This document shows positions 19,762 to 53,658 of a DNA stretch of 64,000 bases, piece by piece. The DNA comes from Chelativorans sp. J32 (GTDB taxonomy: Bacteria > Pseudomonadota > Alphaproteobacteria > Rhizobiales > Rhizobiaceae): contig NZ_JAEQ01000019.1 in assembly GCF_000518985.1 (NCBI RefSeq), forward strand, positions 353 to 64,352, in the 5' to 3' direction. Below the pieces are notes generated by a model that was given only the letters and a program-made list of their open reading frames with translations, did no database searches and was not told the origin of the DNA. Numbering within the stretch: position 1 is the stretch's first letter; each line of letters opens with the position of its first letter. The position numbers and the translations under genes are program-made.

Positions 19762-20934
19762 TCAGCCTGCACTGTTGCGGTTGGCCGGTAGCCGGTCCAG
19801 GAGCAGGCTTTTCGCATCGAATTCGCCCGTGTCGAGGAATGTCTCGAGCATTTCCCGGTAGGGTTCGATGTCGATGTCGTTCTTCGTCAGCCAGTCCGGA
19901 TCGTAGTAGGTGGAGGTGTAGCGATCGCCACTGTCGCAGATGAGCGAGACGAGGGAGCCTTCCTCTCCTTCCGCCATCATGCACGCGGCAATCCAGCAGA
20001 GGCCGAAGAAATTGGTGCCGGTTGAGCCGCCGACGCGGCGGAAAAGCCGCTCCGACAGGACATACATTGCCGCGATCGAGGCTGCGTCCGGGATCTTGAT
20101 CATGTGGTCGATTACGTCCGGCACGAAGGATGGCTCCACTCGCGGACGACCGACGCCTTCGATACGGGAGGCTTTGCTGCAGGTGGCGTCCAGATTGCCG
20201 GCGAGATACGCCTCATAGAAGGCGGAGTGCTCCACATCCACCACGCAAAGGCGCGTGTCGAGATTGCGATAGCGGATGTAGCGGCCGATCGTGGCCGACG
20301 TGCCGCCCGTGCCAGCGCTCATCACGACCCATTTGGGATGCGGGTACTCTTCCGCGCGCATCTGCTCGAAGATGCTCTCGGCGATGTTGTTGTTGCCGCG
20401 CCAGTCGGTTGCCCGCTCGGCATAGGTGAACTGGTCGAGATAGTAGCCGTCGGTCTCCCGCGCGAGCCGCGCAGCTTCGCTATAGACCTGGGCTGGGTCG
20501 TCCACGAAATGGCAACGGCCGCCGAAGCGTTCGACGGCCGCAATCTTCTGCCCGCTCGTGGAGCGCGGCATGACGGCAATGAAGGGAAGATCGAGGAGGT
20601 GAGCGAAATAGGCTTCGCTCACCGCCGTCGAGCCCGAAGAAGCTTCCACCAGCGTCGTGCCGCGCCTGACCTTCCCGTTGCAGATTCCATAGAGGAAAAG
20701 CGAACGCGCCAGGCGATGCTTGAGGCTCCCGGTCGGGTGGGTGGACTCGTCCTTCAGATAGATCGAGATGCCCTTCAGGCCGCGGAAGACCGGCTTGATC
20801 AGATGCGTATCCGCAGAGCGGCGCCCATCCCCTTCGAGAATGTCGATCGCCCGGCGAGCCCAGCTCCTGTCCTCGTTTTCGGGCAGGCGCATCAGGGGAG
20901 GGCAGGGTGGGCAAACGGGGCCTTCCGCAACCAT
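19762..20934 (-). CDS. PLP-dependent L-cysteine desulfhydrase-like protein (Cds1 type)
   Basis: The 390-residue fold-type II PLP enzyme is of the cysteine synthase family. It contains [13 protein letters not shown] with the PLP-binding Lys, [13 protein letters not shown] and the phosphate loop [12 protein letters not shown]. This set, with the long C-terminus, matches the group that includes the mycobacterial cysteine desulfhydrase Cds1, which turns cysteine into sulfide, ammonia and pyruvate. It follows a canonical RidA gene by 12 nt. RidA hydrolyses 2-aminoacrylate, the intermediate such a reaction releases, so the pair makes functional sense. It is the last gene of the long minus-strand operon. 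Confidence 0.83.
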
Positions 20935-20946
20935 CTCGGTGTCCTC

Positions 20947-21321
20947 TTAAAGCAGAATAACCGCTTCTACTTCGACCTTAGCACCTTTTGGTAGGGCGGA
21001 GACTTCATAACACGCCCGCGCCGGATAGGGCTCGCTGAAAGCCTTTCCGTAGACCTCGTTGATCTCCGCGAATTGGGAGAGATCCGTCAAAAGGATGGTT
21101 GTCTTCACGGTCTTGGAGAGGCTGGTCCCGGCCGCTTCCGCAATCGCGGCGATGTTGGCCAGGCATTGCTGCATTTGCTGTATGGGATCCTCAGAATTGA
21201 AAGCGCCCGTCGAGGGGTCGATGGGGAGCTGGCCGGAGACGAACAGGAGGCCGTTCGCGCGATAGGCTTGCGAGTAAGGCCCGACCGCTGCAGGGGCTTT
21301 CTCTGTGGAAACAGCGCTCAT
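20947..21321 (-). CDS. ridA: RidA family 2-iminobutanoate/2-iminopropanoate deaminase
   Basis: The 124-residue protein has the full RidA pattern: VGPYSQAY, LLFVSGQLPIDP, VKTTILLTDLSQFAEIN and PYPARACYEV with the conserved substrate-binding Arg, then VEVEAVI. It should hydrolyse reactive enamines/imines such as 2-aminoacrylate to the keto acid and ammonia. It lies directly upstream of the Cds1-like gene and 21 nt after the AhpD-like gene, inside the GntR-linked operon. This differs from the other Rid protein in the window, which has lost the Arg. Confidence 0.9.
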   Translation of the reverse strand: MSAVSTEKAPAAVGPYSQAYRANGLLFVSGQLPIDPSTGAFNSEDPIQQMQQCLANIAAIAEAAGTSLSKTVKTTILLTDLSQFAEINEVYGKAFSEPYPARACYEVSALPKGAKVEVEAVILL

Positions 21322-21342
21322 TATAGTCCTCTTTCTTCATGA

Positions 21343-21921
21343 TCACTTGGTTTCGACGGGCGTCGAATGACCGAGCGTGTGCATCAACCGGTTGGCCCAG
21401 CCGAAAATGGCCGCGGCATGGATGAGATCGACGATCTCCGCTTTCGACATCCCCTGATCCAACAGAGCCTGCGCCTGGTCCTTCGTGACCCTTGAAGGGG
21501 TTTCCGACAGGCTTCTGCAGAAATCAACGATAGCCTGTACACGAGGCTCGAACGGTCCGTCGAGACCCTTCAGGTAAATGGCCTCCACCACGTCGGAACG
21601 CCCGGAGAGCTCGATATAGCGGCGCGCATGTACGGATGCGCAATAGACGCAGCGATTGACGGCCGAGGCGACAAGCGCGCCGAGTTCGCGTTCCGCGCGA
21701 TCTAGGCCGCCCTTGGCATACATGATCGCGTTGAAGAGCTTGGTGCGCGCCACGTAGGACTCTGGATCATGCGCGAGCGTGCGCACATAGGGCGAGACTT
21801 TCGTGTTCGAGGGCGTGACCTGCATGGCGGCCAGCTGCTCCTCGCTCGCCGTCTCCACGCTGACTGGTTCTATATAGGGCGCCCATGAAAGCGCCTTTAC
21901 CTTGAAGCGCTGTGTGCTCAT
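21343..21921 (-). CDS. AhpD-like alkylhydroperoxidase / peroxidase-related protein
   Basis: The 192-residue protein has the AhpD/carboxymuconolactone-decarboxylase fold with the redox motif CVYCASVH (CxxC plus His). It matches a group of alkylhydroperoxidase-domain proteins first named from Agrobacterium vitis (Avi_7169-like), which sits next to a CMD-domain partner, as here. It likely reduces a peroxide or a flavin hydroperoxide-derived product. The start overlaps the CMD gene stop by 4 nt (ATGA). Confidence 0.82.
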   Translation of the reverse strand: MSTQRFKVKALSWAPYIEPVSVETASEEQLAAMQVTPSNTKVSPYVRTLAHDPESYVARTKLFNAIMYAKGGLDRAERELGALVASAVNRCVYCASVHARRYIELSGRSDVVEAIYLKGLDGPFEPRVQAIVDFCRSLSETPSRVTKDQAQALLDQGMSKAEIVDLIHAAAIFGWANRLMHTLGHSTPVETK

Positions 21922-22409
21922 GCGATTTCTTCCAGGACTTTTAGCCCCGCGATGACGCGGGCTTCGAAATTCACGAAAGCGATCAGTTCGGAAAGGGCGA
22001 TGATCTGCGGATTCGTGAGGCCGGCTTCTTCAAGCCGCTCGATGTCGGCGCGGGTGCAGTCGCGAGGCGATTTGGTCACCAGGTCGGCATGGCGAACCAA
22101 CGCGATCGTGAAGCGGTCTGCCGTGGAAGGCAAATCATCACCTGCGGCAATCGCCGCAAGGAGTGCGTTTCCTTCATCCTCCAGCAATGCCTCGTAAGTA
22201 GACGCAAGCTCACCAAGCCCAACCATGCGCGCCATGCGGGCAGCAAGTGCGGTGCGCATAGAATGGGTTATTCCAAACCCTGCGTGCGGTCGGAGAACGG
22301 CTTCCCGGCAGATCTCCGTACCTTGCACGAAATCCGGACGTTCCCGCCGGATGCCGTACAGTTCGGAGGCCGGCTCCAAGCCGGAGAGGATGTCTATCTG
22401 GTCGGACAT
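21918..22409 (-). CDS. CMD-domain protein without CxxC (Avi_7170-like)
   Basis: The 163-residue all-helical protein resembles the carboxymuconolactone-decarboxylase domain (ADLVTKSPRDCTRADIERL and ALSELIAFVNFEARV) but has no CxxC pair. Such proteins are known as partners of the adjacent AhpD-like protein in operons with dipeptide-type ABC transporters and flavin monooxygenases. It may be a structural or regulatory subunit. It starts 30 nt after the OppF-type gene. Confidence 0.78.
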   Translation of the reverse strand: MSDQIDILSGLEPASELYGIRRERPDFVQGTEICREAVLRPHAGFGITHSMRTALAARMARMVGLGELASTYEALLEDEGNALLAAIAAGDDLPSTADRFTIALVRHADLVTKSPRDCTRADIERLEEAGLTNPQIIALSELIAFVNFEARVIAGLKVLEEIA

Positions 22410-22439
22410 GTCACTCCTTGGGGAAACGAGAAAACGGCC

Positions 22440-23372
22440 TCAGCCGCGCAGCACGAAGTGCCCGTCGCCTACCGGTTCAAGCACGGCTGATTGCGGCGGC
22501 AGATTGGCGTTCACGTCGAAGGCGATGGGATGCCGTTTGCTTTCCAGGTCCGGGTCCGGAATCGGGATCGCCGAGAGAAGCGCGCGCGTGTAGGCGTGCT
22601 GGGGATTCTCGAAAATCGCCTCGCAGGGGCCGATTTCCACGATCCGGCCGCGCAGCATGACCGCCACGCGATGGCAGAGGAAACGGATCATGGAAAGGTC
22701 ATGCGCTATGAAGAGATAGGCAAGCCCCAACTCGTCCTGAAGGTCCTGGAAAAGATTGACGATCTGCGCCTGGATCGAGACGTCGAGCGCGGTGATCGGT
22801 TCATCGGCGACGATGAAGGCAGGATTGAGCGCGATTGCCCTAGCAATGTTCACGCGCTGGCGCTGGCCGCCTGAAAATTCATGCGGGTAGCGTTTCATGA
22901 AGGCTGGATCGAGCCCAACTTTCCTGAAGAGAGCAGCCACCTTGTCCTGACGCTCGGACCTGTTCGGGCACACGCCGTGGACGATCAAGGGCTCGCTCAC
23001 GAAATCGCCGACCGTCATGCGCGGATTGAGCGAGGCGTAGGGATCCTGGAAGATGATCTGCATGTCCCGGCGGTAGGGCCGAAGCAGATGCTTGGACAAG
23101 CCGGTGATGTTGCTGCCCTTGAAGAGGATGTCGCCGCTGGTCGGCGCTTCCAGTTGCAGGAGCACACGGCCCGTCGTGGATTTGCCGGAGCCGGATTCGC
23201 CAACCAGCCCCAATGTTTCTCCAGGCATGACTGCGAAGCTGACGTCGTTCACCGCCCTCAGCTGTGGCTTGGCTGCGCCGAGCAGGCTGCGCTCTCCGCC
23301 ATAGGTCTTGCAAAGCCGCTCCACCTGAACGAGCGGTGCAGGGCTTTCCTGAGCGGTGACCATTTCAGTCAT
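22440..23372 (-). CDS. Dipeptide/oligopeptide-type ABC transporter ATPase (OppF/DppF)
   Basis: The 310-residue ATPase has Walker A GESGSGKST, signature FSGGQRQR and Walker B FIVADEP. The C-terminal ENPQHAYTRALLSAIP segment is typical of OppF/DppF. ATG 23372 overlaps the OppD stop by 8 nt; the longer upstream frame is the OppD coding region. With OppD it powers uptake by the B and C permeases. Confidence 0.93.
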   Translation of the reverse strand: MTEMVTAQESPAPLVQVERLCKTYGGERSLLGAAKPQLRAVNDVSFAVMPGETLGLVGESGSGKSTTGRVLLQLEAPTSGDILFKGSNITGLSKHLLRPYRRDMQIIFQDPYASLNPRMTVGDFVSEPLIVHGVCPNRSERQDKVAALFRKVGLDPAFMKRYPHEFSGGQRQRVNIARAIALNPAFIVADEPITALDVSIQAQIVNLFQDLQDELGLAYLFIAHDLSMIRFLCHRVAVMLRGRIVEIGPCEAIFENPQHAYTRALLSAIPIPDPDLESKRHPIAFDVNANLPPQSAVLEPVGDGHFVLRG

Positions 23373-24381
23373 GGGATGCCGCCTCCAGCTTTGCGAGTTC
23401 TTGCCTGAGGTCATACCAGGCGGCAACCTTGTGGCCGGAAACGCTGTCCGCAGCGTCGACGAGCGGCGGGGTTTCGCGGAAGCAGCGCTCGGTGGCAAAC
23501 CGGTTGCGCGGAGCGAATGGGTCTCCCACGGGCTCGCGCGTCATGTCCGGCGGATTACCGGGTATCTGATAAAGTCGCTTCACTCCGCGCTGGCTCCCAT
23601 GGGGAAGAGATTTGAGGAGCCCCCATGTGTAGGCGCTGCGGGGATCGTTGAAGACTGCACGGACCGGGCCGCGCTCCATGATGCGGCCGCCATACATTAC
23701 CTGCACGGTATCGGCGAGGCCTGCAACCACGCCCATGTCATGCGTGATCCAGATGACGGTGGTGCCGATCTTCTTCTTGAGGTCGCGGACGAGTTCCAGG
23801 ATCTGGGCCTGTACGGTGACGTCCAGCGCCGTTGTCGCTTCGTCGGCGATCAGGAGTTTGGGATTGCAGGACACGCCTATGGCGATCATGACGCGCTGGC
23901 GCATCCCACCGGAAAATTCGTGCGGATACTGGCCGGCGCGGCGCTCCGCGTCGGGTATGCCTACGAGTTCAAGGAGTTCGACGACCCTCTTTCGGGCCTG
24001 ACTGGCAGACAGGCCGAGATGCCTTCGCAACGGTTCGGCGATCTGGCGCTCGATCGTCAGGACGGGGTTGAGCGAGGTCATCGGGTCCTGGAAAATGAAG
24101 CCGATCTCCTTGCCTCGGAGGTCGAAAAGCTCTCTTTGCGACAGCGCCAGCAAATTCCTGCCGTTGAAAAGCACCTCGCCTCTCACGACCCGCCCCGGAG
24201 GCATCGCGATCAGGCCGACCATGGACAAAGCGTGCACGCTTTTGCCCGATCCGGATTCACCTACGATTCCCAACGTTTCTCCTTCCGCGAGCGTGTAGGA
24301 GACGTCGTTCACCGCGTGAACCGTGGCCGAGGCCGTATTGAACTCGACGGTAAGATTACGGACTTCCAGAAGCGGTTTCAT
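23365..24381 (-). CDS. Dipeptide/oligopeptide-type ABC transporter ATPase (OppD/DppD)
   Basis: The 338-residue ATPase has Walker A GESGSGKS, signature FSGGMRQR, Walker B LLIADEA and the C-terminal region with YQIPGNPPDM of the OppD group. ATG 24381 overlaps the permease stop by 4 nt (ATGA). Confidence 0.93.
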   Translation of the reverse strand: MKPLLEVRNLTVEFNTASATVHAVNDVSYTLAEGETLGIVGESGSGKSVHALSMVGLIAMPPGRVVRGEVLFNGRNLLALSQRELFDLRGKEIGFIFQDPMTSLNPVLTIERQIAEPLRRHLGLSASQARKRVVELLELVGIPDAERRAGQYPHEFSGGMRQRVMIAIGVSCNPKLLIADEATTALDVTVQAQILELVRDLKKKIGTTVIWITHDMGVVAGLADTVQVMYGGRIMERGPVRAVFNDPRSAYTWGLLKSLPHGSQRGVKRLYQIPGNPPDMTREPVGDPFAPRNRFATERCFRETPPLVDAADSVSGHKVAAWYDLRQELAKLEAASHD

Positions 24382-25235
24382 CGGGACGTCCTCAGCTTCG
24401 GATCGAAATAATCGCGCAGCCAGTCTCCCAGAAGGTTCACGCTGAGAACGGTGAGCAGGATGGCGATGCCGGGGAAGGTGACGATCCACCACGCGGTGGA
24501 GATATAGACGCGCCCGTCCGACAGCATGCGTCCCCAGCTGGGGTTCGGCGGCTGGATTCCGAGGCCCAGGAAGGAAAGCGCCGCGTCCATGATGATGATG
24601 CGGGCGAGCTCCAGGGTGGCGATGACGAGCGCGGGCGTGAGCACGTTCGGCAGGAGGTGGCGCAGCATGATGCGCCATGTGCCGGCACCGATCGCATGGG
24701 CGGAGAGGATGAACTCGCGTTCGCGCAGGGCAAGCACCTGACCGCGAATGATCCGCGCGTAGCGCAGCCAACTCGTCAGCGCGAGAACGATAATGAGGTT
24801 GCGCGTGGAAGGCCCGAGCGCGGCCACGACCAGGAGTGCCAGCAGCATCAGCGGTAGGGCGAGCTGGATATCGACGATCCGCATCAGAACCCGGTCGACG
24901 ATCCCGCGATAATAGCCGGCGATGATGCCGAGCAGGACGCCGACCACGCCGCCGAGGACAACGGCCGAGCACGCGACGATCAACGTGACCCGGCTGCCAT
25001 AGACAATGCGCGAGAGGATGTCGCGGCCCAGCTCGTCAGTACCGAGGGGGTGTGCGCCGGGCGAGAAAAGGCCTGTCCAGGTGGGTGGCGCCATGCGCGC
25101 AAGGAGATCCGAACGCGTGGGCGAGGGGAGGCCAAGAAACGGCGCAAGGATCGCCGCAAGGACGAAGACCGTCACAAGGACGAAGCCGAATAGTCCGGCG
25201 CGGCTTTGCAGAAGCGCGGAAAAGAAGGATTTCAT
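24378..25235 (-). CDS. Dipeptide/oligopeptide-type ABC transporter permease (DppC)
   Basis: The 285-residue membrane protein has a single N-terminal helix (GLFGFVLVTVFVLAAILAPF), the HPLGTDELGRDILSRI motif of DppC/OppC permeases and an EAA loop (FILSAHAIGAGTWRIMLRHL). ATG 25235 is chosen because the permease N-terminus begins there; it leaves 7 nt after the DppB stop. Confidence 0.93.
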   Translation of the reverse strand: MKSFFSALLQSRAGLFGFVLVTVFVLAAILAPFLGLPSPTRSDLLARMAPPTWTGLFSPGAHPLGTDELGRDILSRIVYGSRVTLIVACSAVVLGGVVGVLLGIIAGYYRGIVDRVLMRIVDIQLALPLMLLALLVVAALGPSTRNLIIVLALTSWLRYARIIRGQVLALREREFILSAHAIGAGTWRIMLRHLLPNVLTPALVIATLELARIIIMDAALSFLGLGIQPPNPSWGRMLSDGRVYISTAWWIVTFPGIAILLTVLSVNLLGDWLRDYFDPKLRTSR

Positions 25236-25242
25236 GAGTTCC

Positions 25243-26160
25243 TCACCGCTGGCGAATGCGTGGATCGAGCACGCCATAGAGGAGGTCGACCAGCAGGTTT
25301 GTTACGACGAAGATCACGGCGACCAGCGCCACGCCGGCCTGGATGACCGGAAAATCCTGCGCCTGGATAGCCTGCATGATGACGCGGCCCACTCCCGGCC
25401 AGGCAAATACCGTCTCTATGACCACCGACCCTCCGAGAAGCTCGCCGGCAATGATGCCGATCATGGTCACGACGGGAATGAGAGCGTTGCGTGCAATGTG
25501 CCAGAAGAAAACGGTTCTCGGCATCAGCCCCTTTGCGCGCGCTGTCCGCACATAGTCTTCGCGCATGATGTCGAGAAGGGAAGAGCGCAGGAGGCGGGCG
25601 ATCGAGGCCGACACGAAGACCGAAAGCGTGAGGCCTGGCAGGATGAGATGGGCAAGGCTTCCCGAGCCTCCGGTTGGGAGCCAGCCCAGTTGCACGGAGA
25701 AGAACAGGATGAGCATGATGCCCAGCCAGAAGACCGGCGTGGCCTGCCCGAGAAGGGCCGCCGTCATCACGACGAATTCCGAAATCGTGCCGCGGCGCAG
25801 CGCCGCGATGGCGCCTGCCACAGCACCGATGAGCGTGCCGAAGAAAAGAGCCGTACCGGCGAGCATGCCTGTCGCCGGCATGCGTTCGAGCACCACGTCG
25901 AGCGCCGGCCGCGTATGCTGGAAGGAGATTCCAAAATCCCCCCGCAGCATGGAAAGGAGCGCAATGCCGTATTGCTCCAGGATCGGCCGATCGAGGCCGA
26001 GTGCTGCGCGCAAGGTGTCGATATCCTGCTGGCTCGCGCCCATGGGCAGCAGAAGCACTGTCGGATCGCCCAGCACACGGCTGACGAAGAACACGATCGT
26101 CACCACCCCCCAGATGGCCAGGGCGGCTTCAAACAGTTTAGAGAGGAGGTAGCGAGCCAT
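25243..26160 (-). CDS. Dipeptide/oligopeptide-type ABC transporter permease (DppB)
   Basis: The 305-residue membrane protein starts MARYLLSKLFEAALAIWGV and shows about six membrane segments. The EAA loop reads YVRTARAKGLMPRTVFFWH, the DppB/OppB form. ATG 26160 matches the usual DppB N-terminus; upstream in-frame codons lack permease character. A 97-nt gap separates it from the monooxygenase gene upstream. Confidence 0.93.
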   Translation of the reverse strand: MARYLLSKLFEAALAIWGVVTIVFFVSRVLGDPTVLLLPMGASQQDIDTLRAALGLDRPILEQYGIALLSMLRGDFGISFQHTRPALDVVLERMPATGMLAGTALFFGTLIGAVAGAIAALRRGTISEFVVMTAALLGQATPVFWLGIMLILFFSVQLGWLPTGGSGSLAHLILPGLTLSVFVSASIARLLRSSLLDIMREDYVRTARAKGLMPRTVFFWHIARNALIPVVTMIGIIAGELLGGSVVIETVFAWPGVGRVIMQAIQAQDFPVIQAGVALVAVIFVVTNLLVDLLYGVLDPRIRQR

Positions 26161-26257
26161 TAAAGCCTCGCCCTCGCAAAACGCCGCGCTCGCACGACCG
26201 GGCTTACACCCGAAGGCGGTGCAGGGCACACGGGATCAAACACGGTGCTCAACCTTT

Positions 26258-27733
26258 TCATCCTGCGGTATCTTGCTCCAAAACGGCATTCTCTCCGGCA
26301 TCTGCCCATTCGTCGCCCAGCAGTTCAGGCGTGTCGAAGCCAACGAGGCGTTCGAAGTGAAGCTGGCAATCGGCCACGAAGAGGCTTCGAGCGATGCTCT
26401 TGGCCAGGCGGTTTGCCCCGTCGCTAACGGCGGGAATATCGCCGGAAAGCTTTCCGTGGCTCAGTGTGGCCGGATAATTGAAGCAGTGGATCTGCTTGAG
26501 GGCGGGGCAGCTTCCCGGTGTCTTTTCGGTGAACTCGAAACCGGTACCCAGATAGGGCGAAGTCGCAAGCTCGCTGTTGTCCATCCCCGGCTGCGGCGTG
26601 AAGCTGTCCTGCCAGAAGCGAATGTACGGCGCGAAGTGTTGCAGCTCGGGCCGCTGGGAGAGGTCAACTTTGAACCCGGTCGCAAAGATCACGAAATCGA
26701 GGTCAAAATCTCCCTTAGGGGTCTTGATGACCGCTGCTCCGCCGCGTTCCTCGAAGCCGATGACCGGCGTGCCCAGATGGAAGCGGGCGTTCGGATGGCG
26801 GGAGACGCGAAGCGTGGAATCCCGAGGAGGCGGGGTCTGGGCGCGCAACACGTAATCGAGAAATTTCCATTTCCATGCATCTTCAAGGCCGGCGAAGCCG
26901 TGAACCACTCCCTGGCTTGAGATGCCGGTGAACTTGTTCACCCGGGGCAGATCCTTGCGGCGTATGAAAAGGTCGAGGCTCGCCGCTCCTTCCTCCAGCG
27001 CCGTGGCGGCATTGTCCATGGCGGAAGCGCCCGCGCCGACGACGCCGATCCGTTTCCCCTTCAGTTGCGCGAAGTCGATATCGTCGGCCGAATGGGCCCA
27101 GAATTTGCGGTTCACGGTCCGCACGAAGTCGGGCACATGGCCGCCGCCCAACCCGTCGCGACCGGTTGCAAGCACGACATGGCGCGCATAGAGCGTCTCC
27201 ACCGAACCAGCGGCATCGTCTCGCACCGCGATCTCGATGAGGTCGTCACGGGCTGGCTTGAGTTCCAGGACGGTGACGCGGTTACGGACGGGAAGCGACA
27301 GGACCTTCCTGTACCAGACCAGGTATTCCATCCACTGGGTTCTCGGTATCTTGCCGAGCGCCTCCCAGGCCTGCTCGCCAAATTGCGCCACATACCACGC
27401 CCTGAAGGTCAGGGCCGGCAGTCCGAGTGCAGGTCCCGTGAGCTGCTTCGGCGAACGCAGCGTCTCCATCCGCGCGAACGTCACCCAGGGGCCTTCCAGT
27501 CCCTCGGGAGCGCGGTCTAGGCAGACGGTGTTGGTGATGCCGAGCAATTTCAGGCTGGCAGAGGCGACCAGTCCGCACATGCCGCCACCGACGATGGCGA
27601 CGTCCAGAACCCGCCTTCCGTTGAACTCCGTTACCGGCACCCATTCCGCTGCCGGGAGCTGCAGGTAGGAAAGGTCTTCGGCAAGCCTCTTCTCGAGGTT
27701 GGCAAGCCCCTCAAAGGACTTTTGCTGAATCAA
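26258..27733 (-). CDS. FAD/NADP-dependent monooxygenase (FMO/BVMO-like), copy 1
   Basis: The 491-residue flavoprotein has an FAD motif VAIVGGGMCGLVAS (about residues 45-60), an NADP motif IGVVGAGASAMDNAA, an FMO/BVMO-like fingerprint around FWAHSADDIDF and a conserved late segment FVIFATGFKVD. It would use NADPH and O2 to oxygenate a soft nucleophile or a carbonyl. It sits between the binding-protein gene and the permease genes of the dipeptide-type importer, so the imported compound is the likely substrate. I chose TTG 27733 because GGAG lies 10 nt upstream; TTG 27760 is also possible. A close paralogue is at 58877-60340. Confidence 0.78.
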   Translation of the reverse strand: MIQQKSFEGLANLEKRLAEDLSYLQLPAAEWVPVTEFNGRRVLDVAIVGGGMCGLVASASLKLLGITNTVCLDRAPEGLEGPWVTFARMETLRSPKQLTGPALGLPALTFRAWYVAQFGEQAWEALGKIPRTQWMEYLVWYRKVLSLPVRNRVTVLELKPARDDLIEIAVRDDAAGSVETLYARHVVLATGRDGLGGGHVPDFVRTVNRKFWAHSADDIDFAQLKGKRIGVVGAGASAMDNAATALEEGAASLDLFIRRKDLPRVNKFTGISSQGVVHGFAGLEDAWKWKFLDYVLRAQTPPPRDSTLRVSRHPNARFHLGTPVIGFEERGGAAVIKTPKGDFDLDFVIFATGFKVDLSQRPELQHFAPYIRFWQDSFTPQPGMDNSELATSPYLGTGFEFTEKTPGSCPALKQIHCFNYPATLSHGKLSGDIPAVSDGANRLAKSIARSLFVADCQLHFERLVGFDTPELLGDEWADAGENAVLEQDTAG

Positions 27734-27768
27734 GTTTCTTGCTCCTGTCTTCCGACGCAAGCTCGGGG

Positions 27769-27794
27769 TGGCCCGATCGCAGGCGATCGGGCCA
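27769..27794 (-). terminator. Strong hairpin behind the dipeptide-type binding-protein gene
   Basis: TGGCCCGATCGC (27769-27780) and GCGATCGGGCCA (27783-27794) are perfect 12-bp complements separated by 2 nt. The element lies between the binding-protein stop and the monooxygenase start. It has no T-run and may protect the binding-protein mRNA or reduce read-through. Confidence 0.6.
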
Positions 27795-27859
27795 TGTGGA
27801 ACATCATGCGGTGGCTTCAGTCGAGCTGAATTGGCCGATGGCTTGCGCCATCCGCAACG

Positions 27860-29365: not shown

Positions 29366-29395
29366 TTTGGTTCCCTCGTTCTTCTCGATTGCCTC

Positions 29396-30247
29396 TTAGC
29401 TTTGGGATGGCTGTGTGCGGGCCAGAAAATCCCGCACAGCGGCGACGACCACGTCGTTCGCTTCGATGTGAACAGCGTGATTGGCGCCCGGCACTTCCAG
29501 CAATTCCGCATTGGGAATTTTCTCTGCGATCAGCCGGGAGTGGTTGGGCGGGCAGATCCAGTCTTCCGCCCCGCAGATCACAAGTGTGGGGACCGCGATG
29601 TCCTTGAGCTGGTCCCGGACGTCATAAATGCGCTCGGCAAACAGCGCATTGTGGGTTTCGGCATGCAAATGCATGGTCCGGGTACGTTCCAGGGCCGCAT
29701 CCGGATCGAAATTCTCGTAATAGAGCGGCTGGAGCGCAAGCCAGATAAGGCGCAGCTCCATGTCGTCCTTCACCTGGTCGGAGAAGAGCTTCTCCAGCAT
29801 GCGCACAGAAGCGCTCGGCGCCTTGTGGAGACGCTGCTTGAAGGTGACGAATGCGTCATCCTCGTTGTGGTGGCTCGCAGCGGTGCCCCGCAGGATGAGT
29901 CGTGACAGCCCTTCGGGATGTCTTACCGCATAGGTGAGCGCGATCATGCCCCCAAACGAGCCGCCGAGGAGAATGATCTTGCGACCGCCGCAAAGATTTT
30001 GGCGGAACGCTTCCACATCGTCGGCGAACTGCTCGAAAGTGTATGGCGGCGTCAGGCTCGTCTCGCCGCAACCGCGCTGATCGTAGGCGATCAGGCGATA
30101 ATTGTCCGAAAGCGCCTTGTACGCGGAGAACTCTCCGCGGCGATCGCCGATGCCTCGGCCTCCATGAAGGGCTACGATGACGTCTGCATCTTCATCGCCG
30201 ATATCGTCGTAGACGAATGTTGCCCCGTTGAGTGTCACTGTCGGCAT
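29396..30247 (-). CDS. Alpha/beta hydrolase (proline iminopeptidase-like)
   Basis: The 283-residue protein has the oxyanion region LHGGRGIGDRRGEF, the strand-turn YDQRGCGETS, the nucleophile elbow LGGSFGGM and the catalytic His in GANHAVHIEAND, with an acid near ICGAEDWICP. The YDQRGxGxS motif is that of proline iminopeptidases and related amide or ester hydrolases. GGAGGAG lies just upstream of the ATG. It is the first gene of the long minus-strand operon, and two GntR-type palindromes sit directly upstream. Confidence 0.85.
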   Translation of the reverse strand: MPTVTLNGATFVYDDIGDEDADVIVALHGGRGIGDRRGEFSAYKALSDNYRLIAYDQRGCGETSLTPPYTFEQFADDVEAFRQNLCGGRKIILLGGSFGGMIALTYAVRHPEGLSRLILRGTAASHHNEDDAFVTFKQRLHKAPSASVRMLEKLFSDQVKDDMELRLIWLALQPLYYENFDPDAALERTRTMHLHAETHNALFAERIYDVRDQLKDIAVPTLVICGAEDWICPPNHSRLIAEKIPNAELLEVPGANHAVHIEANDVVVAAVRDFLARTQPSQS

Positions 30248-30278
30248 CTTACTCCTCCGGACATGCAGCCGAGAGCTG

Positions 30279-30336
30279 GGCGCCGATGCTTGGCGCCAAT
30301 CTCATACTAAAAAGATAGAACATTAAATGGCGCCAA
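30279..30336. promoter_or_regulatory. Two candidate GntR operators (plus a degenerate third)
   Basis: TTGGCGCCAA at 30290-30299 is a perfect palindrome. ATGGCGCCAA at 30327-30336 holds the same core. A further GGCGCC lies at 30279-30284. They are in the leader of the hydrolase/importer operon, and the same TGGCGCCAAT occurs in front of hyuA at 31113. Confidence 0.6.
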
Positions 30337-30384
30337 TTTCAAATATAATTTTTCCGGGTTGCCTGACGTCCTTAGAATCGGAGT

Positions 30385-31023
30385 CTACCGATCACCGGAT
30401 CCGAAGTGGTACTGGCTCACATGCCGCTCGGTGATCATGCGCAGGCGATCCGCGTCTTTGGTGCGCAGAGCTTCGATCATTTCGAAGTGATCCCGCGCCG
30501 AGCGTTCAAGCTTTGCAGGGGTGTTGCTCGCCCGCTGTGCGGCAAGGGGGACACGCATTCGCAAGTCCCAGATGATTTCCACCATCACCGAATTTCGGCA
30601 GGATTTAAGCAGCTCCCGGTGGAAGGCATGGTTCGCGCTGTCCTGCTCCAGGACCGTACCGGTCTTGACCGTTTCTGCGAACACGCTGGCGAGGTAGGAA
30701 AGGCGCGCCAGGGATTCATCTGTAATATTTTGAATCAACTCCTCGACAACGGACATTTCCACAAGCGCGCGTGCGCGCAGGATATTGTGGACATGTTCGC
30801 TGTCGATGGGAGGCACGTAATAACCGCGATTGGGGATATGCTGAACCACCTTGCGCGAATGGAGCTGCTCCAGCGCGTGACGCAAAGCGAGACGGGCGCA
30901 TTTGTAGCGCTGCTCCAGATCGATCTGCTTGAGCCACATCCCGGGCGCAAGCGCGCCGCTATAGATGTCGGCTTCGATCAGTTCGGCGAGAGAACCTGAT
31001 TCTCGAACCGCGCTCGTACTCAC
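30385..31023 (-). CDS. GntR family regulator (FadR/FCD subfamily)
   Basis: The 212-residue protein has an N-terminal winged HTH (LKQIDLEQRYKCARLALRHA, then IPNRGYYVPP) and a C-terminal all-helical FCD ligand domain. It starts at GTG 31023 behind GGAGG. It lies between the hyuA operon (divergent) and the hydrolase/importer operon (same strand, downstream). Shared palindromes in both leader regions make it the likely regulator of both. Confidence 0.9.
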   Translation of the reverse strand: MSTSAVRESGSLAELIEADIYSGALAPGMWLKQIDLEQRYKCARLALRHALEQLHSRKVVQHIPNRGYYVPPIDSEHVHNILRARALVEMSVVEELIQNITDESLARLSYLASVFAETVKTGTVLEQDSANHAFHRELLKSCRNSVMVEIIWDLRMRVPLAAQRASNTPAKLERSARDHFEMIEALRTKDADRLRMITERHVSQYHFGSGDR

Positions 31024-31096
31024 AAATCCTCCATCCGTTGCTGCGACTGCACGTCCGAAAAGACGCGGACAAATTTTCTAGCACAACTTTCCTTGG

Positions 31097-31122
31097 TTGA
31101 CATTGGCTAATTTTGGCGCCAA
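31097..31122 (+). promoter_or_regulatory. Candidate -35 box overlapped by a GntR operator, upstream of hyuA
   Basis: TTGACA at 31097-31102 is followed by the palindrome TTGGCGCCAA at 31113-31122, placed where RNA polymerase would contact the spacer and -10 region. No good -10 match is visible, so the promoter call is weak; the palindrome itself matches those at 30290 and 30327. Confidence 0.55.
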
Positions 31123-31159
31123 TTTTTGAACAAATCCAATCAGACCCAAAGAGGCTTGC

Positions 31160-33235
31160 TTGTTAAAGGATAGGGGTTCCCGTTTTCGGGTCGGCGTCGA
31201 TTCAGGCGGTACTTTCACTGACATCTGCATATTCGACGAGGAGAAATCGGAAGTCTTCGTCTGGAAGATCTCCAGCACTCCGTCCGATCCCTCGGAAGGC
31301 ATTTCGGAGGGTGTCGCACAGGGCCTCGGTGCTATGCCCGGGGGAGGGGATCCGGCCTCCGTCGTTTACTTCGGCCACGGCACGACCGTGGGCACCAATG
31401 CGCTCATCCAGGGGCGCGGCGCCGATTGCGGTTTGATCACCACCGAAGGTTTCCGCGACGTTTTGGAAATCGGCCGGCAGAAGCGTCCCGAACTCTATTC
31501 GCTCCAGAGCGTAAAAGCACCGATCCTTGCCACGCGTGACAAGCGCATGGAGGTGCGCGAGCGGGTCCTTTTCGACGGTACGATCGCCCAGGAACTCAAT
31601 GAGGACGACGTCCGGAACGCCGTTCGTGAACTCAAGGCGAAGGGCGTCAAGGCAATCGCCATCTGCACCCTCTTCTCCTTTATCGAGCCCGGGCACGAGA
31701 AGCGCATTCGCGAGATCGTTCTAGAAGAGATTCCGGATGCGTTTTTGAGTGTGTCCCACGAGATCGCACCTGAATTCCGCGAATATGAGCGGACCTCCAC
31801 CACGGTGGTGAACGCCTATCTCGGACCCGTGATGCGCACCTATCTCGACCGCCTCACTCCGAGATTGCTGGAGGCCGGCATTTCCGCCGAGCCGCATCTG
31901 ACGCAGAGCAATGGCGGTGTCATTTCCTGCGAAACGGCGAAGAACCAGCCGGTGCGTACCGTGCTCTCCGGGCCGGCCGCTGGCGTCACCGCGGCCGTCG
32001 AGCTCGGCCGGGCCACGGGCATCGAGAACCTCATCACCTTCGATATGGGCGGAACGTCGAGCGATGTCGCGCTCATCGATCGCGGCCAGCCGCAGATGGC
32101 GAACGATATCGTGGTCCACGGCTATCCCCTGAAAGTGCCGATGCTGGATATCCACACCGTCGGTGCTGGGGGAGGCTCGATTGCGTATGTGGACAATGGC
32201 CTCCTCAAGGTTGGGCCGCGCAGCGCCGGCGCCAATCCCGGCCCCGTCTGCTACGGGCTCGGCAATGAGGAGCCGACCGTCACCGACGCCAATATCGTGC
32301 TCGGCATCCTGAACCAGACGCACTTGCTCAATGGCCGGATGGCGATCGACGCAGAAGCTTCCAAACAGGCTGTGGCGCGCTTGGCCGAGCAGCTTGGCAT
32401 CGGTGTGATGGAGGCTGCACAAGGTATCATTCGCGTGGTGACCGCCAATATGGCAAAGGCCATCCGGGTCATCTCCGTGGAGCGTGGCTACGATCCGCGC
32501 GATTACACGATGCTGGCGTTCGGCGGGGCGGGCCCGATCCATGCCGCGCGCCTTGCCAAGGAACTTGAAATACCGAAGCTTCTCATCCCGAAGCACCCCG
32601 GCATCATGTGTGCCATCGGTCTTCTTCAGGCAGACCTGCGGACGAACATCTCGCTCACCCGTATGTCACCGTTGTCGCTTGAAGCTCTGCCGATGATCGA
32701 GGCTGGTTTCGCACAGCTTCGCGAGCGTGCGGATGAGTGGTTCGAGGCGGAGGCGATCCCGCCTGCGGCGCGCACGCTGCGGCTTGCGATCGATGTGCGC
32801 TATGGCGGCCAGGCATATGAATTGACGATCGACTGGCCGGAAGATTCCACGGGCGAAGCACTGATCAAGGCGATCAGGGAGCGGTTCGAAGGCGCTCACA
32901 AGCAGCTCTACGGTTATATAGCCGAGGAAGAGCCGATCCAGGCGACGACGCTACGCGTCGAGGCGATCGGCCATGTGCCGAAAGCCGAGCTGAAGCGCTA
33001 TCCGCCTGCTGCCGGAAAGGCTGAGGACGCCATCGTCGGAACGAGGAAAGTATATCTGCCCGAACTCGGCAGCTTCACGGAATGCCCCCTCTACGAGCGC
33101 GAGCGGCTCGGGCCCGGGCATGTCGTGGCCGGCCCCGCCGTCGTCGAGCAGATGGATTCCACAACATTCATCCTCCCTGGCCAGAAAGCCACGGTGGATC
33201 CTTACCTCAATCTCCTGATCGAGTGGAAAGCATGA
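31160..33235 (+). CDS. hyuA: Hydantoinase/oxoprolinase subunit A (HyuA)
   Basis: The 691-residue protein has the ASKHA-type phosphate loops FRVGVDSGGTFTD (N-terminus) and FDMGGTSSDVAL (middle), plus GTNALIQGRG and FGGAGPIHAARLA. It belongs to the ATP-dependent hydantoinase / 5-oxoprolinase family, which opens lactam or hydantoin rings. TTG 31160 is the likely start, with AGAGG 6 nt upstream. Its stop overlaps the HyuB start (ATGA). It likely forms a complex with HyuB. The exact ring substrate is unknown. Confidence 0.92.
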   Translation: MLKDRGSRFRVGVDSGGTFTDICIFDEEKSEVFVWKISSTPSDPSEGISEGVAQGLGAMPGGGDPASVVYFGHGTTVGTNALIQGRGADCGLITTEGFRDVLEIGRQKRPELYSLQSVKAPILATRDKRMEVRERVLFDGTIAQELNEDDVRNAVRELKAKGVKAIAICTLFSFIEPGHEKRIREIVLEEIPDAFLSVSHEIAPEFREYERTSTTVVNAYLGPVMRTYLDRLTPRLLEAGISAEPHLTQSNGGVISCETAKNQPVRTVLSGPAAGVTAAVELGRATGIENLITFDMGGTSSDVALIDRGQPQMANDIVVHGYPLKVPMLDIHTVGAGGGSIAYVDNGLLKVGPRSAGANPGPVCYGLGNEEPTVTDANIVLGILNQTHLLNGRMAIDAEASKQAVARLAEQLGIGVMEAAQGIIRVVTANMAKAIRVISVERGYDPRDYTMLAFGGAGPIHAARLAKELEIPKLLIPKHPGIMCAIGLLQADLRTNISLTRMSPLSLEALPMIEAGFAQLRERADEWFEAEAIPPAARTLRLAIDVRYGGQAYELTIDWPEDSTGEALIKAIRERFEGAHKQLYGYIAEEEPIQATTLRVEAIGHVPKAELKRYPPAAGKAEDAIVGTRKVYLPELGSFTECPLYERERLGPGHVVAGPAVVEQMDSTTFILPGQKATVDPYLNLLIEWKA

Positions 33236-34896
33236 ACCAGAACTCCAATCCTACTGCCGCGTCAGGCCTTTACGTCGATCCCGTCACCGTGGAGGTGATC
33301 GGCAGCGCGCTTTCCACCATTGTAGAGGAGATGGGCAAGGCAATCGTCCGCGCCGCTTACTCCACAAACATCAAGGAGCGGCAGGACTGCTCGACGGTGC
33401 TTTTCGACGCGGAAGGCCGCACGATCGCACAGGCCGAGCGGATCCCCATCCATTTGGGCTCTCTCCTGGGGATCGCGGAATATGTGCTGAAGCATGTCGA
33501 TATCTCGACGGTCGAGCCGGGTGACGTGTTTGTCGGCAATGACGCCCATACCGGCGGCGGCACGCATCTCAATGACATCGTGTTCCTCGAGCCGGTCTTC
33601 TTCGAGGGGGAGCTGGTCGCATGGGTCACGAATCTGGCGCACCATTCCGATTTCGTCGATCGCGGCCATAAGCATATCTTCCAGGAAGGCCTGCGCATCC
33701 CGCCGATCAGGCTTTATAGAAAGGGTGTCCTGCAGCAGGACGTCATGGATCTGATCCTGTTGAACTGCCAGGTGCCGCGGGAACGCATCAACGACTTCCG
33801 CGCGCAGATGGCGGCCAATCGGCTGGGCGTCCAGCGTTATCAGGCACTGTGCACCAAATACGGCAAGGAGGTCGTGAAGGCGGCGAGCGCCGAAATCCTG
33901 AACTATGCCGATCGCAAGACGCGCGCGGGCATAGCGAAGATCCCGGACGGGGTTTACGAGCATAGCTGCCGTTTCGATAGCAATCTGGTTGATGAGGTGA
34001 TGGACCTCAAGGTCAGGATCGAGGTGCGCGGCGACGAGATCTTCTTCGATCTCTCCGGCAACCCGGAACAGGTGCGCGCACCGATCAACATGGTCTATAC
34101 GGCAACGCTTGCCACGGTCTATTTCGCCGTGAAAACCCTTGTCGACCCCGACATTCCCGCCAATTCAGGCTTTCACCGGCCCATCCATGTCGCCGCGCCG
34201 GAGGGCTCGCTCTTCAACGCAGTCGAGCCTGCTGCCGTCTATAGCCGCACAGACCCCGCTCAGCGTCTTGTCGACCTCATCTTTGCAGCCCTCTCCAAGG
34301 CAATTCCGGAGGAGGTTTGCGCCGCCTGCACGGGCGGGGGGCTGATGACCTTCAGCGGCATTCATCCGAGGACGAACCGCTTTTACGTCTATAACGAGAT
34401 GTGCGGCGGCAGCATGGGAGCCCGCGCCGGCAAGGACGGCTTGGATGGAGTGCAAGTGCACACCACCAACACCGCGAATATCCCGATCGAGGCGCTGGAA
34501 TTCGAACACCCGATCATGGTCGAGCGGTATGAACTGGTGAAGGATTCGGGCGGCCCGGGCCAGTGGCGTGGTGGAATGACCATTCGGCGCAAGGTTAAGG
34601 CGCTTGATCATACCGCTACTGTTTCGGCCGGTGGGACCAATGCCATAGTGCCGCCTTGGGGCCTCTTTGGTGGAATGGACGGCACCACGACGAATGTTGA
34701 GCTCGGAGAGGGCGTGGCACCGCTTCACAGGCGCGTCGGGCAGGTCGGTCCCGGCCAGTCGATCGCTATGGTGGCGTCTTCGGGCGGGGGATATGGCGAT
34801 CCGAAAAAGCGCGATCGCGCCCTCGTTCTGAAGGATCTGCGGGAGGACCGCATTTCCGAGGAGGCTGCCCGCGAAATCTACGGCCTGGAACTATGA
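33232..34896 (+). CDS. hyuB: Hydantoinase/oxoprolinase subunit B (HyuB)
   Basis: The 554-residue protein has HyuB landmarks: AIVRAAYSTNIKERQDCST, VGNDAHTGGGTHLNDIV, NLAHHSDFVDRG and the late Gly-rich tail SSGGGYGDPKKRD. ATG 33232 overlaps the HyuA stop by 4 nt; the longer upstream frame is inside HyuA. The opine dehydrogenase-like gene again overlaps its stop by 4 nt. Confidence 0.93.
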   Translation: MNQNSNPTAASGLYVDPVTVEVIGSALSTIVEEMGKAIVRAAYSTNIKERQDCSTVLFDAEGRTIAQAERIPIHLGSLLGIAEYVLKHVDISTVEPGDVFVGNDAHTGGGTHLNDIVFLEPVFFEGELVAWVTNLAHHSDFVDRGHKHIFQEGLRIPPIRLYRKGVLQQDVMDLILLNCQVPRERINDFRAQMAANRLGVQRYQALCTKYGKEVVKAASAEILNYADRKTRAGIAKIPDGVYEHSCRFDSNLVDEVMDLKVRIEVRGDEIFFDLSGNPEQVRAPINMVYTATLATVYFAVKTLVDPDIPANSGFHRPIHVAAPEGSLFNAVEPAAVYSRTDPAQRLVDLIFAALSKAIPEEVCAACTGGGLMTFSGIHPRTNRFYVYNEMCGGSMGARAGKDGLDGVQVHTTNTANIPIEALEFEHPIMVERYELVKDSGGPGQWRGGMTIRRKVKALDHTATVSAGGTNAIVPPWGLFGGMDGTTTNVELGEGVAPLHRRVGQVGPGQSIAMVASSGGGYGDPKKRDRALVLKDLREDRISEEAAREIYGLEL

Positions 34897-35933
34897 AGGT
34901 CGGCATTGCCGGGTGCGGCGGCATAGCGCTTGGCTATGCCGCCTTCCTTCTGAAGGAAGGACATCAGGTAACGGTCTGGTCTCCCTCCGGCGTCAGTTCC
35001 CGCCCTCTCGTTGGCACGGAACTCGAAGTTTCCGGCGTGTTAGAGGGCAGGTTCGCAGTCAAGGTCAGTGCGTCGGCAGCCGAGATGATGGCGTCGTCCG
35101 ATGTGATCATCATTGCCGTGCCGGGCTATGGTCATCGCAAGGTCATCGACGTCATTGTCCCGTTCGCCCGGGACGGCCAATCCCTCATCGTCAGTGCGCA
35201 ATTGTCGCTTAGCGCCTATTACCTGAGCCGCGCCTTGGCTGCGCGCGGTATTGCAGCCGACGTCGCCGCCTGGGCGACGACAGTATTGATGAGCCGGCGT
35301 ACCGGACCCACCAGCATTGCCGTTGGCGGAGTAAGGCAACTGCTCGAAATCGCAGCGCTTCCCGGCGAGAGGGGAGAGGCGTGCCTGGACCTGTGCAGGT
35401 CCCTGTTCGGGGAGCGCTTTCGGCTTGTTCCAAACATATTTGCGATTGCCCTCGGCAATCTCAACCCGCCCATCCACTTGGCAAGCGCTCTGTGCAATTT
35501 CACGCGGATCGAGAAGGCGGAATACTGGGCGAATTACGACGGCATTACGCCCTCGGTCGCTCGGCTGATCGAAGCGCTGGACAAGGAACGGGTGGCCTTG
35601 GCCGACGCCTATGGTGTCAAGGTTCGAACGGTCGAGGAACATTACCGGCTCACCTTCGGGTTCCCCGAAGGACACCCGATCGCCGAGATGGCCGCGATGG
35701 TTCACAAACAGCGTCAGGGACCACCCGGTCCCACATCGCTGGAGACGCGCTTTATAACGGAGGACGTGCCTTTCGGGATCGTGCCGCTGGTCAAGCTGGC
35801 CGAACGGAAAGGAGTCGCCTTGCCGCTCCACCAGGCGGGTGTCCAGATCTTCAACGCCTTATGCGGGCGAGACTTTGTTCGAGAAAACGACTTGTTGGAT
35901 GAGATCATCGATCATTTAGGCGCGATGGCCTGA
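34893..35933 (+). CDS. NAD(P)-dependent opine dehydrogenase family protein
   Basis: The 346-residue protein has an N-terminal Rossmann motif (GIAGCGGIALGYAAFL) and a C-terminal helical octopine/nopaline-dehydrogenase domain with NLNPPIHLASALCNF and the probable catalytic His region in VEEHYRLTFGFPEGHPI. The family interconverts an opine (or a related secondary amine) with an amino acid and a keto acid. It is coupled to HyuB (ATGA), so it likely acts in the same pathway. It is the last gene of the operon and ends at a very stable hairpin. Confidence 0.85.
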   Translation: MKVGIAGCGGIALGYAAFLLKEGHQVTVWSPSGVSSRPLVGTELEVSGVLEGRFAVKVSASAAEMMASSDVIIIAVPGYGHRKVIDVIVPFARDGQSLIVSAQLSLSAYYLSRALAARGIAADVAAWATTVLMSRRTGPTSIAVGGVRQLLEIAALPGERGEACLDLCRSLFGERFRLVPNIFAIALGNLNPPIHLASALCNFTRIEKAEYWANYDGITPSVARLIEALDKERVALADAYGVKVRTVEEHYRLTFGFPEGHPIAEMAAMVHKQRQGPPGPTSLETRFITEDVPFGIVPLVKLAERKGVALPLHQAGVQIFNALCGRDFVRENDLLDEIIDHLGAMA

Positions 35934-37235: not shown

Positions 37236-37346
37236 CGCAAAAGCCTCCTCATAGCGACCTCAATGTGAGCAACCATAGCTGGGCTGGACATATGCAGCAA
37301 TTTTTTTGAAAAAATATTTTATTCTACCCGGAAAAATGCCAAGTTG

Positions 37347-37382
37347 CTGAAGCAAAAAAGATTTATAGTTTTTCAGCTTCAG
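37347..37382. promoter_or_regulatory. Inverted repeat in the bhcA/IclR divergent region
   Basis: CTGAAGC (37347-37353) and GCTTCAG (37376-37382) are perfect complements 22 nt apart in the 158-bp divergent region, ending 11 nt before the IclR start. The stretch before it (37300-37322) is AT-rich with TTTTTTGAAAAAA symmetry. Either could be the IclR operator. Confidence 0.4.
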
Positions 37383-37393
37383 GGGAGGGCAGG

Positions 37394-51150: not shown

Positions 51151-51184
51151 TCGCTTCCGTTCCTCCCCAGGTGCGGACTAAAGC

Positions 51185-52618: not shown

Positions 52619-52666
52619 ACTTCACCTGTTCGGCTGTCCTGCCGGCATAATCTTCGGTCTCTGGGC

Positions 52667-52691
52667 GCGGCGGTCCACGAAGGACCGCCGC
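52667..52691 (-). terminator. Strong hairpin between amidohydrolase 2 and UbiD genes
   Basis: GCGGCGGTCC (52667-52676) and GGACCGCCGC (52682-52691) form a 10-bp stem with a 5-nt loop that reads TTCGT on the transcribed strand, a stable UUCG-like loop. No T-run follows. It may tune expression of the downstream half of the operon. Confidence 0.6.
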
Positions 52692-52705
52692 CTTCAAAGC
52701 AAAGC

Positions 52706-53623: not shown

Positions 53624-53658
53624 GTTCTTTTCCGGAAATTCGTGTCGCGAAGGATGGC

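Follow-up and report, generated by a model that had tools for sequence, protein, structure and literature searches.

What does a set of generically annotated catabolic genes in Chelativorans sp. J32 degrade, and do these genes act as one pathway? The genes form an island at positions 19762-35933 of a 64,000-nucleotide stretch of contig NZ_JAEQ01000019.1 (positions 353 to 64,352, forward strand; hereafter the window). It holds 15 genes in two divergent operons flanking one GntR/FCD regulator gene, which is counted among them. An initial annotation, made from the sequence alone, had read the island as one regulon joining ring opening by HyuAB, flavin oxygenation and cysteine breakdown. We found that the gene set is real and recurs as one unit in several genera. 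Tentatively, and with rather less than an even chance of being right, we propose that the GntR-controlled island imports and degrades both an opine-like compound, an N-carboxyalkyl derivative of cysteine or S-substituted cysteine, and the corresponding lactam.

Organization of the island

Family profile searches recovered every gene named in the initial annotation. The left operon runs from an alpha/beta hydrolase through a substrate-binding protein (SBP), a flavin monooxygenase (FMO), OppB, OppC, OppD, OppF, CMD, AhpD and RidA to a Cds1-like gene. Its genes overlap or are separated by gaps of at most ~30 bases from OppB onward, with gaps of about 100 bases or more between SBP and FMO and between FMO and OppB. 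The right operon consists of HyuA, HyuB and an opine dehydrogenase (ODH) gene, and every stop overlaps the following start. A TRAP/glyoxalase region lies to the left of the island and BhcA/BhcR to the right. The listed open reading frame starts were over-long for HyuB, OppB, OppC, OppD and OppF, and corrected starts were used.

19762-20934, minus strand: Cds1-like pyridoxal phosphate enzyme, probable L-cysteine desulfhydrase, terminal gene of the left operon (PF00291, E 5e-49)
20947-21321, minus strand: RidA-type enamine/imine deaminase (TIGR00004, 162 bits, cut-off 106.25)
21343-21921, minus strand: AhpD-type peroxidase-related enzyme (TIGR01926, 189 bits, cut-off 81.8)
21918-22409, minus strand: CMD-type AhpD partner (TIGR04029, 95.6 bits, slightly below the cut-off of 100.75)
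22440-23372, minus strand: OppF/DppF-type ATP-binding cassette (ABC) ATPase (PF00005, PF08352)
23365-24381, minus strand: OppD/DppD-type ABC ATPase (PF00005, PF08352)
24378-25235, minus strand: OppC/DppC-type permease (PF00528, PF12911)
25243-26160, minus strand: OppB/DppB-type permease (PF00528, PF19300)
26258-27733 (start uncertain), minus strand: FMO, class-B-like FAD/NADPH monooxygenase (PF13738, PF13434)
27860-29365, minus strand: SBP family 5, binding protein of the importer (PF00496, 279 bits)
29396-30247, minus strand: alpha/beta hydrolase, iminopeptidase/esterase-like, leading the left operon (PF00561)
30385-31023, minus strand: GntR/FCD regulator (PF07729, PF00392)
31160-33235, plus strand: HyuA, ATP-dependent hydantoinase/oxoprolinase subunit A (PF01968, PF05378, PF19278)
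33232-34896, plus strand: HyuB, subunit B (PF02538, 556 bits)
34893-35933, plus strand: ODH of the CENDH type, Octopine_DH family (PF02317, 117 bits)

Several proteins fell short of narrower profiles. The terminal enzyme scored 565.6 bits on NF052478 against a curated cut-off of 600 and is for that reason called Cds1-like rather than a formal Cds1 equivalog. AhpD scored 164.4 bits on the equivalog TIGR04030 (cut-off 233.15), and the hydrolase 112 bits on TIGR01250 (cut-off 167.65).

Recurrence of the two arms

Relatives were surveyed in 297 genomes of the order, a class-level set and a plasmid set, with 80 genome loci anchored on FMO (L numbers denote loci and G numbers genomes). Several of the 80 are short contigs, where gene counts are lower bounds; flanks were ~10 kb, and some clusters end beyond them (L125, L152). 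FMO relatives occurred in 52 of the 297 order genomes. The genes found near FMO in the 80 loci were AhpD (61), CMD (59), ODH (12), HyuA (8), Cds1 (5) and RidA (3).

GntR, HyuAB, ODH, Opp/SBP, CMD, AhpD and FMO are grouped in Neorhizobium (L158, L125) and Bosea (L086-L088), and the same genes without FMO in Microvirga (L159). Ketogulonicigenium (L182) has HyuAB, FMO, hydrolase, SBP, Opp, CMD and AhpD, whereas ODH and GntR are absent from the 20 kb examined. The two arms, which the initial annotation took to belong together, are thus joint in Neorhizobium, Microvirga and Bosea and mostly so in Ketogulonicigenium. The outcome that it named as refuting its reading, arms not kept together, was not observed; Cds1 accompanies HyuAB, ODH and FMO less regularly, as weighed below.

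HyuA of at least 57% identity lies near FMO at five places of the FMO tree (FastTree, 106 rows): the window, Bosea, Neorhizobium L125/L158, N. lilium L152 and Ketogulonicigenium L182, whose branch is long. The FMO of L125/L158 belongs to a different clade (57% identical to the window FMO), with hydrolase, SBP, GntR, HyuAB, ODH and Opp 64-86% identical. FMO-CMD-AhpD was therefore paired with the HyuAB set more than once, the pairing having arisen or been renewed. A plasmid search with HyuA, less biased than the FMO anchor, covered 720 records, 12 of which were opened. Both of its best matches (84% and 81%) were the island, one without FMO. The ten further regions comprised one with the left arm (Ketogulonicigenium), one with luciferase-like monooxygenase (LLM), CMD and AhpD genes nearby (Terrarubrum; L187, 15444-17766, 2.8 kb from HyuAB) and eight with neither.

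In related clusters, HyuAB gives way to M24 and BisC genes. Of the loci whose OppC or hydrolase is at least 60% identical (L169-L171, copies of the window, excluded), HyuA occurred without M24 or BisC in 7, M24 without HyuA in 16 (15 of them with BisC as well) and both in none. One of the seven (L148) has a HyuA of just 35%, the counts are dominated by Rhizobiaceae, and the events are not independent; Bosea loci fell outside the count because only their OppB end (62-65%) lay inside them. The M24 protein matched PepQ- and DoeA-type hydrolases under cut-off, and the BisC-family S/N-oxide reductase scored 769 bits, below the cut-off of 1018. L152, with HyuAB, and L083, with M24/BisC, group together in the FMO tree, which makes an exchange in place likely. 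GntR, the operator described below and ODH are retained alongside M24/BisC in L194.

A shared predicted operator

Three copies of a predicted operator lie in the two promoters that flank the GntR gene.

30291-30302: operator copy 1, TGGCGCCAATCT, a candidate site by sequence
30328-30339: operator copy 2, TGGCGCCAATTT, immediately following a -35-like TTGAAA in the left promoter
31114-31125: operator copy 3, TGGCGCCAATTT, over the -10 position of the hyuA promoter (TTGACA-17-CAATTT)

The pattern TGGCGCCAATYT has exactly three copies in the 4,697,151-base genome, all in the two divergent promoters of the island, and the reversed control has 0. As the pattern was chosen after seeing the sites, having been read off those of the island and its orthologues beforehand, this post hoc count is no blind test. 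The shorter palindrome TTGGCGCCAA occurs at seven places in the genome, two of these in the island.

Stronger and independent support for the candidate operator is its recurrence beside orthologous GntR genes. In 3.24 Mb scanned at other loci, TTGGCGCCAA was found in nine loci, seven of which adjoin an orthologous GntR. The hyuA promoter of L158, L125 and L159 retains TTGACA-17-CAATYT with the operator over the -10 at the same spacing, and their left promoter has TTGAAA followed at once by the operator, as in the window. Despite another gene order, the palindrome is kept beside GntR in Bosea (GntR 42-43% identical) and L194 (41%), in the latter with HyuAB absent and M24/BisC present. The HyuAB-less Rhizobium-type clusters L161, L162 and L078 have zero copies of TTGGCGCCAA, and LysR adjoins FMO there. 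On this pattern the case for one regulon is strong, and both arms are probably switched together, with GntR probably repressing both. The single regulon of the initial annotation thus gains a shared predicted operator that sits in both promoters and recurs elsewhere; a looser search of the window with TTTTGGCGCCAA and two mismatches lent it nothing, giving 9 matches against a mean of 5.67, not above chance.

The opine dehydrogenase and its precedents

ODH matched N-(1-D-carboxylethyl)-L-norvaline dehydrogenase (CENDH; 1bg6) over nearly its full length (E 7e-30). H202, R292 and D297, aligned to identical residues there, are what we take to be the catalytic residues of CENDH, and with these presumed roles the protein is an NAD-type opine dehydrogenase with an intact active site. 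ODH is present in 17 of the 297 order genomes (E 1e-30); the window genome aside, it lies within ~3 kb of FMO in 8 of 16. pTiBo542 and pTiEU6 carry homologues of 45-49% identity within operons for the import and oxidation of opines, and on an A. vitis plasmid such homology is found next to opine-oxidase-like genes.

The pTiEU6 paper proposes that lactam opines are opened by HyuAB, encoded in one region together with an ODH gene, the plan being an importer, ODH, HyuAB and an asparaginase for the released amino acid, asparagine; the role of the ODH gene in Ti-plasmid opine regions is there said not to be clarified (PMC6733357). The succinamopine/lactam-opine region of pTiEU6 and the leucinopine region of pTiBo542 share with the island a dipeptide-type importer and an NAD-type ODH of the same family. 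Further common features are HyuAB within the unit, proposed there to open lactam opines, and an enzyme that acts on the amino acid set free. These regions differ from the island in that the stretches examined gave no FMO, AhpD, CMD or Cds1 match. Our search of one literature library found no paper describing the whole gene set, in line with the initial annotation, which had overlooked the HyuAB and ODH of pTiEU6 as the closest precedent.

HyuAB

The best PDB match of HyuA was N-methylhydantoinase 7hk5 (530 bits), to which HyuB matched with 311 bits; both subunits align over nearly full length with 7hk5 and with the caprolactamase-type hydantoinase 6yra. PF01968, PF05378 and PF02538 over cut-off place the pair in the hydantoinase/oxoprolinase superfamily. 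The island proteins differ from these systems in two respects, and two narrower identities were rejected on them. Caprolactamase CapAB was set aside at 622.9 bits on NF050156 and 292.7 bits on NF050157 against a cut-off of 1000, and an ordinary hydantoinase unit since no racemase or carbamoylase family match was found among the window cluster proteins.

Most HyuAB relatives at 54-62% identity have other genes as neighbours. In L172-L175, L178, L180, L181 and L183-L188 (54-60%) a DAO-type oxidoreductase is present, mostly with SDR genes too. The order FAD-binding oxidoreductase-HyuAB on the octopine-type Ti plasmid L160 resembles these loci and suggests another pathway, and the HutH-like, amino-acid ABC context of HyuAB in L167 and L198 suggests a different use. 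A PF01177 racemase-family gene lies beside the HyuA of 35% identity in L148.

FMO, AhpD and CMD

The glycines of the FAD and NADPH motifs of FMO and the TGF of its ATGF motif, of the ATG(Y/F) type, are invariant in 29 homologues (L130 was excluded for a stop codon). The predicted model had a pLDDT of 89 and a pTM of 0.87, and the best PDB match by sequence an E of 9e-5. In AhpD, E79, C91, C94 and H98 (E-CxxC-H) are identical in 83 of 83 aligned sequences. No cysteine is conserved at 90% among the 79 aligned CMD proteins.

The window contains a possible companion cluster.

58877-63069, plus strand: second FMO (54% identical), M19 dipeptidase and SBP

In Rhizobium/Neorhizobium L161, L081, L084 and L133, a few kb separate such a second-FMO set from the first FMO cluster.

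A recurrent link to cysteine and sulfur

Cds1 was found in 31 of the 297 order genomes, 10 of which also hold FMO, and it is linked to FMO in three (the Chelativorans genome itself, G242 and G286). FMO-type clusters with Cds1 are L040, G242 (L066), L081, L084, L133, L161, L091 and L137; RidA adjoins Cds1 in L040, L081, L084, L133, L161, L159 and L191. On a Gemmobacter plasmid (L191), RidA, Cds1 (70%) and ODH (54%) are consecutive with gaps of at most 10 bases, and the stretch examined gave no FMO, AhpD or HyuAB match. In Microvirga VF16 (L159), genes for RidA, Cds1, Lrp, cysteine dioxygenase and a sulfate exporter lie ~7 kb from ODH.

Other sulfur genes take similar positions. On the Rhizobium plasmids L163 and L165, FMO-CMD-AhpD is adjoined by a cysteine-desulfurase-like class V aminotransferase, a Blh-like dioxygenase (546 bits, cut-off 625, from the L165 proteins; those of L163 are 75-80% identical) and TauE. 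TauE adjoins ODH ~6 kb from FMO on S. meliloti pSymB. Near HyuA of 56-59% identity, L168 and L176 have rhodanese-like and D-cysteine-desulfhydrase-family genes, and L178 a Blh-like gene. The differing families of the sulfur-disposal genes near FMO or ODH speak for sulfur or cysteine as a true product of the predicted pathway. The cysteine and sulfur link of the initial annotation thereby recurs in other loci through non-homologous disposal genes.

Three blocks were noted in addition. Lrp, cysteine-desulfurase-like, Blh-like and TauE genes form a candidate sulfur-oxidation unit (L163, 5.9-9.7 kb; L165, 18.9-22.8 kb). The loci without FMO at L168 15247-17139 and L176 1.3-4 kb give a second possible HyuAB-sulfur link. 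A block of a uroporphyrinogen-decarboxylase-family (UROD) protein, Tct transporter, RidA and Cds1 recurs at L191 4377-11047, with ODH next to it in Gemmobacter, and at L159 23.9-29.5 kb; a UROD-family match (42%) also lies inside L194.

Proposed pathway

From the computed gene set, its recurrence as a unit, the shared operator, the ODH and AhpD active-site residues and the recurrent sulfur neighbours, we infer the substrates, direction and order of the steps that follow. SBP-OppBCDF would import the compound, and the alpha/beta hydrolase would remove an ester or acyl group. HyuAB could then open the lactam with ATP. ODH, working in the NAD-reducing direction, would cleave the secondary amine to a keto acid and an amino acid. 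FMO might oxygenate the sulfur (or nitrogen) substituent, and AhpD with CMD reduce the sulfenate or peroxide so formed. In the last step, released cysteine would yield sulfide, pyruvate and ammonia through the Cds1-like enzyme and RidA. The plan resembles that of pTiEU6 with Cds1/RidA in the last place, and the released amino acid is therefore proposed to be cysteine or a derivative. By analogy with the sulfenate-yielding Cmo route, FMO and AhpD are proposed to handle an S- or N-substituent.

In its fullest form the proposal describes a dedicated sulfur-opine and lactam pathway. ODH and HyuAB would free a cysteine derivative, the N-hydroxylating monooxygenase (NMO)-fold FMO with AhpD/CMD would strip its sulfur substituent, and Cds1/RidA would finish. 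HyuAB or M24/BisC would be interchangeable front ends for related compounds, with the same importer and, in some lineages, one GntR operator. This complete version is rather unlikely.

Weighing the alternatives

Several observations speak against an opine-like cysteine derivative. We know of no sulfur-containing opine. Of the 31 order genomes with Cds1, 28 show no linkage of it to FMO, and neither Cds1 nor RidA was found in the stretches examined of L158, L125, L086-L088 and L182; the cysteine end is therefore not a fixed part. Of the four non-self ODH loci in the class set, L194 is of the island type and three are not, two having other ABC genes as neighbours and one a threonine-dehydratase-like gene, a name read from sequence and not from a family search. 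L152 has HyuAB, no operator site and a LysR gene instead of GntR. The pTiEU6 region likewise has LysR and not GntR, and its HyuA is just 35% identical. For the latter reason, and because the island cluster genes scanned include no Nox/Odh flavin opine dehydrogenase (two subunits with FAD, one with 2Fe-2S) such as is present at pTiEU6, we rank the island as working like a lactam-opine cluster, not as a member. FMO, ODH or AhpD occurred in 0 of 10 order-set HyuA loci at 54-60% (11 non-self matches, G106 left out), 7 of which have a DAO-type gene, and none of the three accompanies the lone non-self HyuA of the class set (62%). The FMO/ODH/AhpD association is therefore, on these comparisons, a property of part of the HyuAB clade and not of HyuAB generally. 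The neighbours of HyuA at 61-62% in Sodalis and G352 (L167, L198) are HutH-like and amino-acid ABC genes.

The predicted fold of FMO is a further point on that side, as all 50 PDB matches listed by Foldseek are ornithine/diamine N-hydroxylase entries (TMq 0.61-0.66), among them SsDesB, presumably an N-hydroxylase of this type. The model assigns FMO to the class B flavin monooxygenases of NMO type, which fixes the class and not the substrate atom. FMO might accordingly N-hydroxylate an amine or secondary amine, with ODH, M24 or HyuAB cutting C-N bonds, sulfur being incidental and Cds1/RidA serving general cysteine disposal. A Pfam Lys_Orn_oxgnase match in FMO and the BisC-family S/N-oxide reductase of the HyuAB-less relatives agree with this. 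The nearest solved folds are the ornithine N-hydroxylases SidA, PvdA and KtzI, but FMO is 13-17% identical to N-hydroxylase structures, too low to carry the substrate over, no siderophore-type family match was found in the window cluster, and independent sulfur genes recur near FMO; we consider N-oxygenation unlikely. An ergothioneine route was considered as well and set aside, no search aimed at it having been made.

Salvage of S-substituted cysteine, resembling the Cmo and S-succinocysteine routes, is doubtful but somewhat better placed. Here FMO would replace the LLMs and oxygenate sulfur, AhpD would reduce the sulfenate, and cysteine would be freed; HyuAB, M24, M19 and the hydrolase would unblock N-terminal or peptide forms, and ODH would be an accessory. 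In Bacillus subtilis, a flavin monooxygenase step on a cysteine S-conjugate leads to free cysteine both in Cmo salvage of S-alkylcysteine and in scm/yxe salvage of S-succinocysteine (PMC10863075, PMC9706529). The same papers describe an importer in the yxe locus and, for Cmo, passage through a sulfenate that is then reduced, but also FMN/LLM-type enzymes (YxeK, CmoJ homologues) and N-acetylation, where the island has a FAD/NADPH class-B-like enzyme, AhpD/CMD, HyuAB and ODH. FMO-CMD-AhpD is indeed the common core of the FMO loci, M19 dipeptidase, amino-acid-type ABC and sulfur-oxidation genes adjoin it in some, and the LLM-CMD-AhpD set near HyuAB in Terrarubrum fits such a route. The window cluster proteins nevertheless contain no acetyltransferase or LLM-type match, ODH outnumbers Cds1 near FMO, and the fold of FMO is closest to N-hydroxylases.

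The route of the initial annotation, in which ring opening of 2-oxothiazolidine-4-carboxylate by HyuAB (or of a thiohydantoin that FMO desulfurates) supplies cysteine to Cds1, now appears improbable. It draws on the superfamily of HyuA/HyuB, on a Cds1-like enzyme named as belonging to the same operon, and on DL-ATC, a cyclic cysteine precursor that, according to a review, yields cysteine later degraded by a desulfhydrase. Yet ODH would have nothing to do in it, M24/BisC can take the place of HyuAB under a regulator of the same type, and Cds1 was not found in the stretches of L158, L125 and L182 examined. Least probable of all, and very unlikely, is a chance assembly of unrelated catabolic genes that share a promoter region and move together on plasmids. 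Genes are gained and lost between relatives, many of which are plasmid-borne; however, nearly the same gene set persists across differing gene orders and FMO clades, the operator is conserved in both promoters, and the rest stays when HyuAB is exchanged for M24/BisC.

Neighbouring loci

BhcA and BhcR of the beta-hydroxyaspartate cycle (36039-38245), both over NCBIfam cut-offs, adjoin the island. A link to it was rejected, as no match to either was found in L158, L125, L159, L086-L088 or L182, and they are treated as a separate locus; weak BhcR-like matches (23-36%) occur in L069, L074, L131 and L172. Another catabolic cluster at 50287-54621 comprises a UbiD-type decarboxylase, two Amidohydro_2 proteins and a CO-dehydrogenase-type flavoprotein.

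Implications

The analysis joins genes with generic annotations in one regulon, for which it defines a predicted operator and a short list of candidate substrates. Were the preferred reading, an opine-like derivative of cysteine, true, it would extend the opine field by a new class of natural compounds. It would also give tasks to two poorly characterised families, that of FMO and the AhpD/CMD pair, and would bear on the role of the ODH gene in the opine regions of Ti plasmids.

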